DNA of 47,570 bases. It comes from a virus. The stretch lies in IMG/VR virus record IMGVR_UViG_3300029448_004129, positions 35,067 through 82,636 of that record. The stretch is one strand, 5' to 3'. Numbering within the stretch: the stretch's first letter is position 1; each line of letters begins with the position of its first letter. The position numbers were made by a program, and so were the translations under genes. This document shows positions 5,263 to 47,570 of this stretch, piece by piece. Below the pieces are notes generated by a model. It had not been told where the DNA came from. It did no database searches and saw only the letters and a program-made list of their open reading frames with translations.

Positions 5263-5270
5263 TATTTATA
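5263..5270 (-). promoter_or_regulatory. Late promoter abutting start codon (TATAAATA)
   Basis: TATAAATAGTAAC runs straight into the ATG at 5257. The motif-to-ATG gap is 5 bases and no ribosome site is present. Confidence 0.65.
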
Positions 5271-29709: not shown

Positions 29710-29806
29710 TGGTACGGTCTATCAGATTTGAACTGATACGATACTGAACTTATTGTCCGTTATCAAAAACTATTGTCTTCGTGTCTACCTCTTCCACCAA
29801 GACCGC
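29710..29806 (-). tRNA. tRNA-Leu-like gene, anticodon arm abnormal (possibly degenerate)
   Basis: On the minus strand the acceptor GCGGTCT pairs with AGACCGT (one G-U), followed by A and an encoded CCA. The D arm reads GTGGAAGAGGTAGACAC, as in leucine tRNAs. The T arm is a perfect ATCAG-TTCAAAT-CTGAT. A long variable arm can be drawn (GGAC-AATAA-GTTC). The anticodon arm is not normal: no 5-base stem with a 7-base loop and a leucine anticodon can be found, and the gene is about 10 bases too long (97 with CCA). GACAATA occurs twice, 20 bases apart, in this part. It may be a decayed gene, an insertion, or an RNA with another job. Confidence 0.6.
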
Positions 29807-42121: not shown

Positions 42122-44017
42122 TTAGTTCTCCTTTTGAATTGATTGAGCATTGTGCTCATTTGCCTCGATATCGTCATGCGATTTCTCCTCTGGTTTATAT
42201 ATGGTTATGAGTTCCTCTTTACCCTTAACCTTTATCTTATCTAACTCAACTGATTTAATATCAACCAATTGTTCCATAGTATAAGACGAATATATCGTAG
42301 GTGTAACTTTACCATTCTCATCTTTGTAATTTCTTGTGGACGCTTCTAAACGTGCCGCAAGATTTACAGCGTCACCAATAACTGAATAATCTAATCGCAT
42401 TTCACTACCCATATTACCTACTATACATGTACCAGTATTAACACCTGAACCAATGTTAATATCTGGTAAACCTTTTTCTTTAAACTCTTTCTTAATTCTA
42501 TCTGTCTCTTCCGCACACTCGATACTTGTCTTAACTGCCATCTCAGCATGGTTCTCACAATCAAGTGGTGCGTTCCAGAATGCCATTATACAATCACCCA
42601 TGTACTTGTCTATTGTACCACCATTCTTCATAACTATCATACTCATTCTGTTTAGATAGTCATTGATTACATTTACAAGTCCCTCTGGATCATCTTTGTT
42701 CTTATAGTATTCTGAAATAGGTGTGAAACCAACAATGTCCATGAATAAGAAACTCATTTCTTTTCTTTCACCACCTAGTTTTAATTTACTTGGGTCTTTT
42801 ACTAATATCGCCACTTGTCGTGGATCCAAGTATTTCTCAAACTGTTTTCTTATCTGTTGTTTTGCCCTAAACTCTAATATGAAACGTAGGAATGTGGCAT
42901 GGAATCCAGTAACCCATAGTGTCAATAATATCCATGTAACATCTATCAACACCAACGTCTCAAAGGCGATTGTGAAGTAGTTACCTATACCTAATGAGGC
43001 ACCAAGTAATGCAAGTCCAATAATCCAGTAAGGTGCAAATCTTGTTAATACTATTATAACACAACCTACCAGGAATGCAAGCGCTAATTCAATAAGACTA
43101 TCATATCTCTTTATCGTCTCTCCGTCAAGTATTGTTTGTAGTGAGTTGGCACTTATAACATAGTCGTACTGTTCACCTTTTGGCGTGGCAATAACACTCG
43201 ATAGACCCTCTGCCGTCAATGCGATTATAACTGTGGTACCTGCAGCCTCATCAAAATTATCACTCGCGGCACTAATTGTCTTAAACTCTTTATTCCAACG
43301 TAACCATATTCTTGCGTTTGCGTCTGTGTTTATAGTTGCATATGCAGGCACTCTCATCGCCACAACACCTGTTTGATCTGCTTTTACTTGATATGATGGA
43401 TCGCCAACAGCAACTCTAATTGTCTCTATCGCCATGTTAGGGTAAACTTCTTCACCAATCTTCATTAACAATGGCACTCGTCTCGTAACACCATCTATCT
43501 CTGGCGCCGTATTGATAACACCTACACCAGAAGCACATTCTGCCAACTCTGGTAGTGGTCCAACCATACCAGGCCATTCGTATAAGAAGTTGAGTGGGTC
43601 ACCTATCTTTGCCACACCTCTTGGTACAGGATTAGATGTTCTTTTTTGTACAGTACCAGTCTGTGCAATTACTGTACCATATGTTAGTGTCTCACAGAAA
43701 TCCATGTCACCATCAAATCTGTCTCTTTCACTAAACAATATTGGCATTACAATTATGCCTGTCTGTGCCTGTCGTAAATCAACAATCATATCTGCCAATA
43801 CTTGTCTTGGCCAAGGCCACTGTCCGTATTTCTCAATCGCTTCTTCGTCTATTGTTATGATTGTTATGTCCTGAGAAGGTGTGACTTCTTCGTTGCCTAG
43901 CACGTAGTCAAATGATTTAAGACGTAAGATTTCTTTGAAACCTGGGTCTTGTAATCCTATATAAGTCAACAATACCAACGTAATAAAGGCAGTTGACCAG
44001 TGGGTCAAAAACTTCAT
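42122..44017 (-). CDS. CHASE2-class III adenylate/guanylate cyclase (631 aa)
   Basis: Layout: membrane helix (about 8-22), CHASE2 sensor outside the membrane (about 30-300, with YGQWPWPRQVLADMIVDLRQ), three membrane helices (about 307-378), a linker, and a class III cyclase (about 418-608). The cyclase site is complete: metal Asp 427 (FMDIVGF) and Asp 475 (KYMGD), base-binding Lys 471, Ser 545 where bacterial type IIIb enzymes have Thr, and Asn 552/Arg 556 (VNLAARLE). It should make cAMP. CHASE2 cyclases in bacteria are often neighbours of FecR-domain proteins, as here. It lies ten bases after the curlin-like gene. A full, apparently intact membrane cyclase in a phage is remarkable. Confidence 0.92.
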   Translation of the reverse strand: MKFLTHWSTAFITLVLLTYIGLQDPGFKEILRLKSFDYVLGNEEVTPSQDITIITIDEEAIEKYGQWPWPRQVLADMIVDLRQAQTGIIVMPILFSERDRFDGDMDFCETLTYGTVIAQTGTVQKRTSNPVPRGVAKIGDPLNFLYEWPGMVGPLPELAECASGVGVINTAPEIDGVTRRVPLLMKIGEEVYPNMAIETIRVAVGDPSYQVKADQTGVVAMRVPAYATINTDANARIWLRWNKEFKTISAASDNFDEAAGTTVIIALTAEGLSSVIATPKGEQYDYVISANSLQTILDGETIKRYDSLIELALAFLVGCVIIVLTRFAPYWIIGLALLGASLGIGNYFTIAFETLVLIDVTWILLTLWVTGFHATFLRFILEFRAKQQIRKQFEKYLDPRQVAILVKDPSKLKLGGERKEMSFLFMDIVGFTPISEYYKNKDDPEGLVNVINDYLNRMSMIVMKNGGTIDKYMGDCIMAFWNAPLDCENHAEMAVKTSIECAEETDRIKKEFKEKGLPDINIGSGVNTGTCIVGNMGSEMRLDYSVIGDAVNLAARLEASTRNYKDENGKVTPTIYSSYTMEQLVDIKSVELDKIKVKGKEELITIYKPEEKSHDDIEANEHNAQSIQKEN

Positions 44018-44027
44018 ATAATACTAT

Positions 44028-44381
44028 TTAGTTTTGATTAACTGTTATGGTGCAAAATGTATGACCACACCATAGTGTGTTCGAATAAGATTTGTTATTA
44101 CCCGTTTGGTTGAAATACATTGATGAATTATTACTTGTTCTACCATCGACATTTACATCAAGTGAATTACCATCACCTATTTGATTTAACTGTATAATGA
44201 ATCCATCCATACTCACTATATCAAAATCAATGACATTATTCTCGCCATCTTGTACTATGTCTAAATCACCACCGTCTGTTTGATTGTCTATTGTTAGTGT
44301 TAGATCATTTGCCAGTATATCACTTGTCCAACAAGAGAATAGAAGATACACCAGAATACCAATTATTAAATATCTTATCAT
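44028..44381 (-). CDS. Curlin-like secreted repeat protein (117 aa)
   Basis: Signal peptide (MIRYLIIGILVYLLFSCWTS, end DILAND) then curlin-type strands with the G-x-x-N and Q-x-G pattern: IVQDGENNVIDFDI, FIIQLNQIGDGNSLDVNV, MYFNQTGNNKSYSN. It ends CTITVNQN. Cys 105 and 110 (CGHTFC) frame a turn. Curlin repeats form amyloid beta-solenoids on the cell surface and leave through CsgG. It is short and may be a nucleator or cap. The ATG has no ribosome site; GATAAATA ends five bases upstream. Confidence 0.75.
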   Translation of the reverse strand: MIRYLIIGILVYLLFSCWTSDILANDLTLTIDNQTDGGDLDIVQDGENNVIDFDIVSMDGFIIQLNQIGDGNSLDVNVDGRTSNNSSMYFNQTGNNKSYSNTLWCGHTFCTITVNQN

Positions 44382-44386
44382 GCTAT

Positions 44387-44394
44387 TATTTATC
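44387..44394 (-). promoter_or_regulatory. Late promoter abutting start codon (GATAAATA)
   Basis: GATAAATAATAGC runs into the ATG of the 117-residue curlin-like gene with a 5-base gap and no ribosome site. It drives a curlin-cyclase unit late in infection. Confidence 0.55.
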
Positions 44395-45315
44395 TTAGTA
44401 TTGTGTTACGGAGACAGCACAACCACCAACAGTTTGGCAATTTTGATTTAGTGTATATGATTGGGCACTCGTACTCTGATTTGATCCTTGTTGTAAATTA
44501 AAATCTGTACCATAACTTCCACCTAGTGTTATGTTAGCAGTATGTTGCCAGTTTTTCTTCTGGTCTATATCAACGTTGTTATCGTCATTATTGAGTGTGA
44601 GTGTTAACTCCTTACCAGAGTTATGTTCTTGTATGATATGGATATCGTTATCGTCTGAATATACATTGATGTCCATATCATGTCCAGATGTGTTGTTACT
44701 GGATCGTTGAGATAACATGATATCATTTCTATCACCAGTTACTCGTAAGTCCATACTATGACCACCTATTTCTAAGTTGTCATAACTAAAATTACCATTC
44801 CCATCTATTTTATAACCTTGACCCATTTTGATATTATTGTTATTACCTTGATAAACATTTAGTATCATGTGGTCTTGGTTACATGATGTGGCTGAACATT
44901 GTTGTTTCGCAATAACAGAATTATCATCATAATCTATCTCTAAATCCATGATAGCGTTATTGTGTATCTGTAGGGCGTCAAAATTATTATTGTCACCATG
45001 ATTGTCTAGGTACATTGTATTACCATCACCAGTTTGTACTGCGGTCATTGTACTTGATGTTTGATTATCAGAACCGTAATAGTGTTTGTATAGACCTATC
45101 TTATTATTATTACCAGTCTGTGTAAAATTAATCGTTTGATTTTTACCATACAATGTGGCAGGTGATGCTGCCGTACTCTTTGTAGATATCCTATTATTCT
45201 GACCGTCTTGCGTGATGGTTACCGTAACGTTAGTACCAACTTGACCTATGTAGATTTCATTGGTATAACCAGGGCTTGTCCAGATTAGAATGCTTATTAT
45301 CAGTATTCTTATCAT
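44395..45315 (-). CDS. Curlin-like secreted repeat protein (306 aa)
   Basis: Signal peptide (MIRILIISILIWTSPGYTNE), then about ten curlin-like repeats: VTITQDGQNNRIST, INFTQTGNNNKIGL, MTAVQTGDGNTMYL, NHGDNNNFDALQI, NVYQGNNNNIKMG, LRVTGDRNDIML, INVYSDDNDIHI, LTLNNDDNNVDIDQ, FNLQQGSNQSTS. N, D, Q and G dominate. Two Cys pairs (140/145, 293/299) stand in turns. The repeats are longer and less even than in E. coli CsgA (about 22 residues each). It has only a weak GAAAAG site before ATG. Confidence 0.8.
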   Translation of the reverse strand: MIRILIISILIWTSPGYTNEIYIGQVGTNVTVTITQDGQNNRISTKSTAASPATLYGKNQTINFTQTGNNNKIGLYKHYYGSDNQTSSTMTAVQTGDGNTMYLDNHGDNNNFDALQIHNNAIMDLEIDYDDNSVIAKQQCSATSCNQDHMILNVYQGNNNNIKMGQGYKIDGNGNFSYDNLEIGGHSMDLRVTGDRNDIMLSQRSSNNTSGHDMDINVYSDDNDIHIIQEHNSGKELTLTLNNDDNNVDIDQKKNWQHTANITLGGSYGTDFNLQQGSNQSTSAQSYTLNQNCQTVGGCAVSVTQY

Positions 45316-45356
45316 CTTTTCTATCGTACTTGGTTTTATCCTTAACGACCCTCTTT

Positions 45357-45728
45357 CTATATTTTGGTGTTCTCAGGTCTTTGGCTATTGGGTTCTGTTT
45401 CTTCATTTTTTTTCTTCGTAATCTTTTTCATCTTATCAATATATCTACGATATACTGCCGCCTCTGCCGTCTTACCCATAACTCTGGCACGTTGCTCCAT
45501 GGCAATCGCAGCCTGTATCTTATGAGCGTGTGTCTTACCACTGCCTTCTATCTTCTTTACACTTGCCTCTGCGGTCTTAACATCTTTGAACCCAAGACCT
45601 TTTATCGTGCCTTTTGGATTCTCGTCTGTGTATAAGTCACTATGTTTTTTACTACCTGCAGGCTGACCTTTCTTTCTAGGTATTCTTGGCGCCTCGATAA
45701 ATTCTTTAAACTTTAATATATCCCACAT
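45357..45728 (-). CDS. Lys-rich conserved protein of marine phages (123 aa)
   Basis: The core KKHSDLYTDENPKGTIKGLG, then FKDVKTAEASVKKIEGSGKT and HAHKIQAAIAMEQRARVMGK, with AVYRRYIDKMKK, is a known small domain in marine phages and large viruses (I recall a DUF5872-type name, not sure). It binds nothing that can be read from sequence. Its ATG overlaps the FecR stop as TAATG, so the two are translated together. Its place between secreted amyloid genes is odd, since it looks cytoplasmic. Confidence 0.7.
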   Translation of the reverse strand: MWDILKFKEFIEAPRIPRKKGQPAGSKKHSDLYTDENPKGTIKGLGFKDVKTAEASVKKIEGSGKTHAHKIQAAIAMEQRARVMGKTAEAAVYRRYIDKMKKITKKKNEETEPNSQRPENTKI

Positions 45729-46849
45729 TATTGTAACTGTTTTATTGTTATTGCGTTATCCTGTCCACCTAGTTCAAAATCATACATTTCAAACTCGTCT
45801 TGTATTATATTTAGTATATATCCATACTCTTTGTCAAGTCTTAATTCTATATATGCCCCACCAGCGTCTTCTCGTATCCATACCCATTGTGGATCCTCAT
45901 CTAATATAATGACACCTGTTACTGGATCTTTACCTAATCGTATTCCGTCTACTGATTTTTGTTTATCAAATTCATTTCTCATTTGTTTGGCAAGTTCTTC
46001 ATTGATTTGTGCTAGTATGTCTGCCAAAAAATTTTGTTGTAAGAAATCTATGTCTAAACCAGTTACATATAAATCTTCTTCTTCCTCTAAGTAGTCAACC
46101 TCTAAATCATCAAATTGTAAAAAGTCTAGGTCTAATGCGTCTGAAACTTCTTTTAATTTATCCTGATAATTTTCTTCCTCTAGTTTTTCTGGTTTTGCAA
46201 CGATTAACATATTATTAATCATATCTAATTCTAAGTCTAATTTTACAGGTGGTGATGGTGGACTCTCTGGCACGTTTACCTGTGTCGCTTGAAATGCCTG
46301 ATTGAGTATAACTTGTCCTGCACCACTTTCAACACTAATCTCACCAACTAAACAATTACCCTTTACATCACAACTTGGTAATAATATTATCGTACTACCA
46401 CCTAGTTCATCTATCGTCATAGAAAAATCTGTGCCCCTAACACCTATTGTTGCCGTGGGTGTTGTAATCGTTATATCTTGTCTGGAAGTTTTAGCAATTT
46501 GTCCTGACGCATATCTTATTGTGCCAAGTTTTGCTGATAGATTTAATTTACCTTTTTTTGTGTTAGGGTCATATACAAATTCATCTATAACTAATTTACT
46601 GTGTTGGGTTACATCTACCCTGGTATCATCTATGAATAGAATACCAACTTTACCATTACCAGTCTTTACAGTATCAAACTGTTCTACTTCTAATTCTTCT
46701 TGGATTGTTATATCTGTTTTATCACGGTCGATAACACCGTTACCTTCTAGTTGGTCAACGTTTCCTATGCTACCCCATAAAGAGGTAGCACAGAATATTA
46801 TTAATAATATTAAAAGTCCTCTAATCGTCCTGTGATATGTCAATATCAT
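45728..46849 (-). CDS. FecR-domain secreted protein (373 aa)
   Basis: After a signal or anchor helix (GLLILLIIFCATSLWGS) comes the FecR beta-domain: GNGKVGILFIDDTRVDVTQH, LVIDEFVYDPNTKKGKLNL, LGTIRYASGQIAK, ITTPTATIGVRGTDFS. The IGVRGTDF end is diagnostic. The C-terminal half is acidic and ends FELGGQDNAITIKQLQ, which looks like one curlin strand. I start at ATG 46849 because AGGTGA stands five bases before it; a GTG nine bases earlier is less good. In bacteria such proteins stand next to CHASE2 cyclases. It overlaps the previous curlin-like gene. Confidence 0.88.
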   Translation of the reverse strand: MILTYHRTIRGLLILLIIFCATSLWGSIGNVDQLEGNGVIDRDKTDITIQEELEVEQFDTVKTGNGKVGILFIDDTRVDVTQHSKLVIDEFVYDPNTKKGKLNLSAKLGTIRYASGQIAKTSRQDITITTPTATIGVRGTDFSMTIDELGGSTIILLPSCDVKGNCLVGEISVESGAGQVILNQAFQATQVNVPESPPSPPVKLDLELDMINNMLIVAKPEKLEEENYQDKLKEVSDALDLDFLQFDDLEVDYLEEEEDLYVTGLDIDFLQQNFLADILAQINEELAKQMRNEFDKQKSVDGIRLGKDPVTGVIILDEDPQWVWIREDAGGAYIELRLDKEYGYILNIIQDEFEMYDFELGGQDNAITIKQLQ

Positions 46850-47501
46850 GGTTGTCACCTACTGTTGTCAAATTGATTATGTTATCATACAAACCAGATT
46901 GTGTTATATCTACATCAGCGATTGATCCCGTATGGGAATGGACTAAGGTGTGTCCGTTAACATCACCATTACCATTTATATCAATTAAATAATTATTTGT
47001 ATCACCATTTACGGTCAACGTTAATATGGCACTCGTACCATCTATAGTAGCAGCAACAACGTTACTATCACTACCAGAGGCACCAGTTATACTTACAGTT
47101 GCGTTTGCCGCGTCTGCTGTCTCACCAATATCAATATCAATATCGTTACTATTACCTACCCATACAATGGAGGCTGTAGCAGTAGCACATGAGGATCCTG
47201 TCCCTGCGCTGTCACAATTGAAATCAATATCGTTTGAGTTACCAGTCGTACTAAACGTACCTGTGAAAGTTGCACCGTTTACATCAAACTTTAAAACGTT
47301 ACTATTACCAACCTGATCAATGTCGATAGTGGTAGTAGCACCAATCACGCTTGAAGCGGTTGTACTATTACCTACAGTATTGTTTTGTCCGTCTTGGGTA
47401 ATGTCGAGGTCAAGCGTTGCACCAGATTGTGTCACATAGATATCATTCGCACTTACCGGTAGTGCCAACAACATTACTATTACGATTAATTTAGCGTACA
47501 T
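46821..47501 (-). CDS. Curlin-like secreted repeat protein (226 aa)
   Basis: Signal peptide (MYAKLIVIVMLLALPVSAND), then LDITQDGQNNTVGN, IDIDQVGNSNVLKFDV, TTGNSNDIDFN, IVWVGNSNDIDIDI, TVNGDTNNYLIDIN, DITQSGLYDNIINL and TVGDNHDIDISQ: seven to eight curlin-like strand-turn units. Cys 96 and 105 frame a loop (CDSAGTGSSC). GGAG precedes the ATG and lies in the stop of the CsgG-like gene. It is the first curlin gene after the pore gene. Confidence 0.8.
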   Translation of the reverse strand: MYAKLIVIVMLLALPVSANDIYVTQSGATLDLDITQDGQNNTVGNSTTASSVIGATTTIDIDQVGNSNVLKFDVNGATFTGTFSTTGNSNDIDFNCDSAGTGSSCATATASIVWVGNSNDIDIDIGETADAANATVSITGASGSDSNVVAATIDGTSAILTLTVNGDTNNYLIDINGNGDVNGHTLVHSHTGSIADVDITQSGLYDNIINLTTVGDNHDIDISQDD

Positions 47502-47505
47502 TACT

Positions 47506-47570
47506 TTACTCCTCTATTTTAAATTGCCATAAACCACATTCAATGCCTTCGTGTATCATATTGAACACGG
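47506..47570 (-). CDS. csgG: CsgG-like curli secretion pore (C-terminal end only)
   Basis: Only 20 or so residues are visible: VFNMIHEGIECGLWQFKIEE, then TAA. E. coli CsgG ends with the same pattern (a long helix then IxxGIDRGLWDLQ). The phrase hydrophobic-x-x-(D/E)GI-x-x-GLWxxK fits the family. It is directly upstream of the curlin-like genes, and the ribosome site of the next gene overlaps its end. The rest lies outside the window. Given its neighbours I take it as the outer-membrane pore for these curlin-like proteins. Confidence 0.65.
   Translation of the reverse strand, partial: VFNMIHEGIECGLWQFKIEE

Follow-up and report, generated by a model that had tools for sequence, protein, structure and literature searches.

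A Type VIII (Curli) Secretion Cluster with a FecR-Domain Protein and a CHASE2 Cyclase in a Marine T4-Like Phage

What would a marine phage gain from a curli-type secretion cluster, and why should a FecR-domain protein and a membrane-bound nucleotide cyclase be encoded among its genes? The question is raised by a stretch of 47,570 nucleotides (the window) that comprises bases 35067-82636, the right end, of the 82,636-base linear IMG/VR virus record IMGVR_UViG_3300029448_004129. A preliminary description of the window placed seven genes at 42122-47570, all on the minus strand, and all seven are found there. They are the downstream portion of a type VIII (curli) secretion cluster (Table 1), and this cluster is a real, intact-looking member of a phage module that has already been published. 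The nearest named relative of the virus is Pelagibacter phage HTVC008M, with 69% identity in the tail tube protein (Mosig comes second, with 39%), and HTVC008M was the sole phage matched in a near-identity DNA search over 22 kb. The host is probably SAR11, the commonest bacteria of the ocean. According to the literature on these phages SAR11 has no curli of its own, so that infection by the phages would furnish these bacteria with a surface structure new to them.

The genes of the cluster

Read from right to left along the minus strand, the genes are the end of csgG, curlin 1, the FecR-domain protein, a small phage protein, curlin 2, curlin 3 and the CHASE2 cyclase. The HTVC008M counterpart of the convergent neighbour is annotated as a putative tail tape measure. 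An Rfam search of the window gave no match.

Table 1. Genes of the cluster and its left-hand neighbour, in window coordinates
Feature	Position	Strand	Basis or remark
3' end of csgG, last 20 codons and stop	47506..47568	-	C-terminal identity to viral CsgG; contig end
Curlin 1, 226 aa, signal peptide, curlin-type strand-turn repeats	46821..47501	-	Relatives; AlphaFold2 model
FecR-domain protein, 376 aa, N-terminal hydrophobic export segment, FecR domain 62-154	45728..46858	-	Pfam, PHROGs, tail signature
Small phage protein, 123 aa	45357..45728	-	Weak phrog_727 match
Curlin 2, 306 aa, signal peptide, repeats, conserved C-terminal Cys pair	44395..45315	-	
Curlin 3-like short secreted protein, 117 aa	44028..44381	-	Weak NCBIfam match, Cys pair, repeat pattern
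CHASE2 class III nucleotide cyclase, 631 aa, adenylate type predicted	42122..44017	-	Pfam, catalytic residues
Convergent neighbour, 728 aa	39851..42037	+	Cluster boundary, outside the cluster

Since the end of the window coincides with the end of the contig, csgG is truncated. Its tail, at 47568..47506, reads VFNMIHEGIECGLWQFKIEE and shares 18 of 20 residues with the C-terminal ends of full-length viral CsgG proteins; scored against 20 CsgG proteins it reaches 54, while the maximum of 2000 shuffles is 45. The corresponding full gene of HTVC008M matches Pfam CsgG at 4.8e-53. The partial gene, which the preliminary description had taken for CsgG, is thus identified from its sequence as csgG, the outer-membrane pore component. 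The place of csgF in this phage lies beyond the contig end; the gene is present in 73 of 73 relatives with enough upstream sequence, and the HTVC008M CsgF matches its Pfam family at 4.7e-16. The CsgE gate, which is accessory and not essential, had no match in four phage genomes that bear the type VIII system, and CsgC and CsgD are absent from the annotated phage clusters.

That the curlin-like genes match curlin profiles holds for their relatives, whereas the copies in the window stay below the threshold. The latter score 15.9 and 14.2 bits against Curlin_rpt, under the cut-off of 20.7, and their NCBIfam CsgA/CsgB matches are weak. The curlins of HTVC008M and Melnitz score 33.1, 26.0 and 21.8 bits, and among the relatives 16 of 29 curlin-2/3 proteins and 5 of 12 curlin-1 proteins are matched. 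The window proteins, with their own weaker matches, are called curlins because these relatives exceed the Pfam cut-off. Curlin 1 shares 45-88% identity with its relatives, of which some exceed the Curlin_rpt cut-off, and its AlphaFold2 model has repeated strands (pLDDT 67); a comparison of this model with the PDB gave nothing significant. Curlin 3 is the least certain assignment among the parts: its NCBIfam CsgA match (2.6e-4) is far under the cut-off of that model, and it has the C-terminal Cys pair and the repeat pattern in common with the other curlins.

Curlin 2 is of special interest on account of its N-terminal part. In HTVC008M this part is a PA14 domain (27.7 bits, cut-off 24), for which the best PDB match is the RsgI3 protein, and PA14 is matched in 4 of 29 curlin-2/3 proteins. 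When 37 distinct complete curlin-2 proteins are sorted by sequence patterns, 5 are of the PA14 type, 18 have another N-terminal domain, for which no identification was obtained, and 14 have none or a different one. The window protein falls in the last class, without the N-terminal domain common in relatives, and one relative locus (L026) has a curlin 2 of the same type. What the curlin-2 proteins have in common is the curlin-repeat region and the C-terminal cysteine pair. With its interchangeable N-terminal domains, curlin 2 looks like a display subunit.

Gene order, a late-promoter motif and the published module

Do these genes travel together? The 160 matches on viral contigs correspond to 151 loci. 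Among distinct FecR loci, csgF, csgG and curlin 1 are all present in 73 of the 73 with room upstream, and a curlin and the cyclase in 41 of the 41 with room downstream. Starting instead from the cyclase, the rest of the cluster is found in 31 of 32 loci with 6 kb upstream, and the single exception is interrupted by its own contig end. The order csgF-csgG-curlin-FecR-curlin-cyclase recurs without change in all viral relatives that are long enough, among them the cultured phages HTVC008M and Melnitz, and a chance explanation is excluded because the synteny is strict across dozens of contigs. This fixed order bears out the view that a single conserved cluster of marine T4-like phages comprises CsgG, curlins, a FecR-domain protein and an intact CHASE2 cyclase. 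The stretch from FecR to the cyclase is variable, and may hold a small phage gene (a phrog_727 relative), curlin 3, SoxYZ or long inserts. Only some relatives have the small phage protein inserted between FecR and curlin 2, and this record contains no second copy of it. Three bacterial-looking matches (L156-L158) consist of short contigs with the phage cluster, which are probably of phage origin and were binned into metagenome-assembled genomes.

The relatives also suggest when the genes are expressed, the operon promoter of this phage itself being situated beyond the contig end. In 50 of 69 distinct loci the T4-type late promoter TATAAATA occurs 8-16 nt upstream of the csgF start codon; 31 of these have it at exactly -13, and several further loci have near matches in this place. 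Upstream of later genes it is found before csgG in 0 of 71 loci, curlin 1 in 0 of 72, FecR in 0 of 71 and curlin 2 in 0 of 32, and overall it occurs at 0.11 copies per kb per strand. As the 50 loci are related they do not count as 50 independent events, and the evidence lies in the contrast with the downstream genes. Within the window, six of the eight copies of the motif are 5-35 nt upstream of the start of an ORF, which in four cases is a tail or baseplate gene. Because the motif precedes csgF but almost no later gene, the set from csgF to the cyclase is probably one late operon.

The preliminary description regarded the link between curli genes and a FecR-cyclase pair as new. This part did not stand, for the full pelagiphage module, with FecR and adenylate cyclase, was reported by Wittmers et al. 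(2022, mSystems; PMC9599517), along with phylogenies, an alphaproteobacterial origin, an ocean-wide distribution and metatranscripts. Their module is the same: it has CsgF, CsgG, CsgA/B, FecR, a second CsgA/B and the adenylate cyclase in the same order, comes from the same phage group and, as they noted, lacks CsgE. The present copy differs by an extra third short curlin-like gene and the inserted small phage gene. Earlier, csgF and csgG had been reported by Zaragoza-Solas (2020; PMC7029224), who proposed "sibling capture", and a lysis pore was proposed for Melnitz by Buchholz (2022; PMC9004378). What is added here is the position of the late promoter, the interchangeable domains of curlin 2, and the FecR-domain protein as a secreted protein that ends like curlin 1. 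Word searches of the main text of Wittmers et al. (PMC9599517) found no mention of CHASE2, PA14 or signal peptides.

The closest cultured examples show how far the module varies. HTVC008M (NC_020484) carries the complete csgF-csgG-curlin-FecR-curlin-cyclase set as gp014-gp019, adjoining tail genes, with 83% identity to the present copy in the cyclase and 72% in FecR; in contrast to this copy, it has PA14 at the N-terminus of curlin 2 and neither the inserted small gene nor curlin 3. The Methylophilales phage Melnitz (MZ577097) has the same order, with identities of 47% for the cyclase and 49% for FecR, but its host is OM43, and its authors connected the pore with lysis and stated that csgA/B are lacking. 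With the enterobacterial curli system (csgBAC-csgDEFG) the phage cluster has the CsgG pore, CsgF and curlin repeats in common, whereas a FecR-domain protein and a CHASE2 cyclase are added, CsgE is not found, and CsgC and CsgD are lacking from the annotated clusters.

The FecR-domain protein and the cyclase

Two names used for the module, iron-dependent regulator (for FecR) and histidine kinase (Wittmers et al. 2022; PMC9599517), do not appear to fit the proteins seen here. The FecR-domain protein opens with a hydrophobic export segment, and its FecR domain (Pfam 3.6e-9, residues 62-154) is the only Pfam domain; on these grounds a reading as a ferric-citrate sigma regulator or iron-dependent regulator was rejected. 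A gene for a sigma factor or a TonB receptor is present neither in the cluster nor in the annotated neighbourhoods, those of HTVC008M and Melnitz included. Judged by its sequence, the protein is secreted and not a cytoplasmic iron regulator. As to the histidine kinase, the genes directly upstream of csgF in HTVC008M-like phages are a pair encoding proteins of ~93-94 aa (phrog_18771) with one apparent hydrophobic segment, for which there was no Pfam match, HisKA and HATPase domains included. The published kinase is probably this pair of ~93-aa proteins, the two being matched by position only.

The C-terminus of the FecR-domain protein carries a signature, G..N.I.I.Q, that is found in 87 of 90 FecR proteins, 81 of 84 curlin-1 proteins and 0 of 1283 other ORFs, and that counts as one observation, the sequences being related. 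Neither a curlin-repeat HMM (only six seeds) nor hhalign gave a link between the FecR tail and curlin repeats. An AlphaFold2 model of the protein, made from 17 sequences, was discarded at a pLDDT of 35.

That FecR and CHASE2 stand together in bacteria, as the preliminary description had it, agrees with what is seen in Alphaproteobacteria, where a FecR-domain protein is likewise encoded near a CHASE2-domain protein. The profile of the phage protein matches 101 of 289 alphaproteobacterial genomes; the strongest matches span the FecR part alone (about residues 20-205), often within long open frames. Among the matches listed, at least 34 of 148 FecR matches are within 6 kb of a CHASE2 domain, and such proximity occurs in at least 32 of the 75 alphaproteobacterial genomes that hold both, where the chance expectation is roughly estimated at about 1%. 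FecR-CHASE2 pairs are thus common in Alphaproteobacteria. In the three bacterial loci where csgF and csgG occur together, there was no FecR or cyclase match within ~1.5 kb.

The cyclase itself has all the features of a CHASE2 class III enzyme: the CHASE2 domain (Pfam, 2e-37), membrane segments, and in the Guanylate_cyc domain (5.4e-19) the two metal-binding Asp, the substrate Lys, Asn and Arg. Of 81 sequences, 80-81 retain each of the residues D427, K471, D475, N552 and R556. K471 and S545 occupy the positions of substrate specificity in class III cyclases, and they point to ATP; the enzyme is accordingly predicted to be of the adenylate type, with cAMP as product. Both proteins were known from phages already, since each has a PHROGs family, phrog_35576 for the cyclase and phrog_37870 (3.9e-159) for the FecR protein. 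A receptor that binds cyclic nucleotides was not found in four phage genomes bearing the type VIII system, and from this follows that the target of cAMP in these phages would have to be a host protein.

Proposed surface display and its alternatives

The purpose of the module is disputed in the literature between a lysis pore, uptake, exclusion and sibling capture. The dispute is made testable, in the cultured HTVC008M, by the position of the late promoter, the adhesin-type domains of curlin 2 and a secreted FecR protein as partner of CHASE2. The reading favoured here, with a probability of about 0.55, is that the operon serves late display of an amyloid or adhesin by type VIII secretion, and that the cyclase reads the status of export or assembly. 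CsgG and CsgF would form a pore in the outer membrane of the infected host, and the curlins would cross the inner membrane by means of their signal peptides, leave through the CsgG pore and presumably form amyloid fibres. The role of conserved fibre subunit or of nucleator would fall to curlin 1, and that of the displayed, variable subunit to curlin 2 (here with curlin 3). The FecR-domain protein may reside in the periplasm or else at the base of the fibre, where its curlin-like last strand could contact the fibre and where it could partner the periplasmic CHASE2 domain, so that the status of export or assembly would be converted to cAMP, with a host receptor as its target. The benefit would most likely be that adhesive amyloid coats infected cells or debris and holds or catches neighbouring hosts, as in sibling capture. 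The display reading is weakened by the lack of a CsgE gate and of a phage receptor for cyclic nucleotides, by the profiles, which leave the homology of the FecR tail unconfirmed, by the curlin 1 model, which has no significant counterpart in the PDB, by the position of this operon's promoter off the contig, and by the observation of Buchholz et al., with flow cytometry or electron microscopy, that Melnitz-infected cells do not clump (PMC9004378).

A more specific version is tentative and rather doubtful. It makes the FecR-domain protein a subunit of the fibre end or base, with its last strand docking on the amyloid and its FecR domain reporting to the CHASE2 cyclase, and curlin 2 an exchangeable adhesin head. 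If this were true, the phage would encode a circuit by which the assembly of amyloid outside the cell is translated, late in infection, into cAMP within the host.

Superinfection exclusion, in which a curli coat blocks the adsorption of other phages (proposed by Wittmers et al. 2022; PMC9599517), is unlikely. A complete secretion set with curlins would indeed coat the surface, but with a late promoter upstream of csgF the coat would arrive late, and the variable curlin-2 domains, among them the carbohydrate-binding PA14, suit adhesion better than plain shielding. Exclusion systems, T4 imm and sp among them, are early products. The promoter position is therefore a mild argument against early-acting roles like T4-style superinfection exclusion.

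Late expression is also compatible with lysis, and Buchholz et al. (2022) proposed that CsgG, with CsgF, is a pinholin- or secretin-like pore that times lysis while curlins are not exported. The lack of a CsgE gate and the unusual shape that they predicted for CsgF/CsgG (PMC9004378) agree with such a pore, but its premise is that csgA/B are absent, and the Melnitz record annotates two curlin-repeat proteins in the operon, both of which pass the Pfam curlin cut-off. As curlins, moreover, accompany csgG in every relative of sufficient length, the lysis pore is decidedly improbable.

An uptake channel, suggested in PMC7029224 and PMC9599517, would likewise agree with the lack of CsgE and make use of an ungated CsgG pore, here for the entry of nutrients or cofactors, with FecR as the link to iron or siderophore import. 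It is highly improbable, for it leaves curlins with exchangeable adhesin-type domains unexplained, and the FecR-domain protein resembles the FecR modules of long bacterial proteins in a cluster with neither sigma factor nor TonB receptor.

That the phage carries a Pycsar-type defence cyclase against rival phages is barely credible: the cyclase domain matches PADLOC models of Pycsar cyclases (best 1.1e-24), but all class III cyclases share the domain that these models match, no PADLOC effector model matched the other proteins of the cluster, and the enzyme has a CHASE2 sensor and the adenylate-type lysine and always accompanies curli genes.

Late-promoter motif and genes upstream of csgF

In 31 loci of related contigs, the ATG of csgF is preceded by the T4-type late-promoter motif TATAAATA, the first nucleotide of which lies exactly 13 nt before the ATG, and the same motif-to-start spacing is found at a tail gene in the window. 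From this spacing and that of T4 follows that transcription would start on the csgF ATG itself, and the late mRNA of csgF may, by this analogy, be leaderless.

The genes immediately before csgF encode two paralogous proteins of ~93-94 aa (phrog_18771), each with one apparent hydrophobic segment. No kinase domain was found in them, and the pair is probably the "histidine kinase" of the published pelagiphage module (Wittmers et al. 2022, PMC9599517).

Features and their positions
Feature	Position
TATAAATA upstream of csgF (example)	L154:5957-5964
Tail gene start; motif	window 5257 (-); 5263-5270
phrog_18771 pair	L061:5335-5897; L154:5308-5870
Fused SoxY-SoxZ gene	L059:5739-6482; also L068, L075
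N-terminal domain beginning like ALIYHSNYSDAHTNVKTQLEADGYTV	curlin 2 of L051, L053, L102 and others
Variant cyclase	L157:6672-8708
tRNA-Tyr	window 29710-29806 (-)

Variation within the cluster

In 18 of 37 curlin-2 proteins a further N-terminal domain, for which ThuA gives no more than a weak match (0.043), is fused to the curlin repeats. In some relatives the gene of the FecR-domain protein is separated from curlin 2 by one for a SoxY-SoxZ fusion protein (SoxY 2.4e-25, SoxZ 5e-16), a sulfur-oxidation carrier gene inserted in the curli operon. The L157 cyclase has GDAVSTAAR where other cyclases have GDAVNLAAR; this replacement of the catalytic Asn by Ser possibly weakens its activity.

Clusters in bacterial bins

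The cluster also occurs on three contigs (L156, L157, L158) binned in Flavobacteriaceae, Rhodobacteraceae and Pirellulales MAGs, with four csgF contigs in the Rhodobacteraceae MAG. The three are probably phage contigs placed in MAGs, and such contigs could mislead trees of origin.

The 97-nt tRNA-Tyr predicted in the window by ARAGORN has the unusual anticodon ATA.
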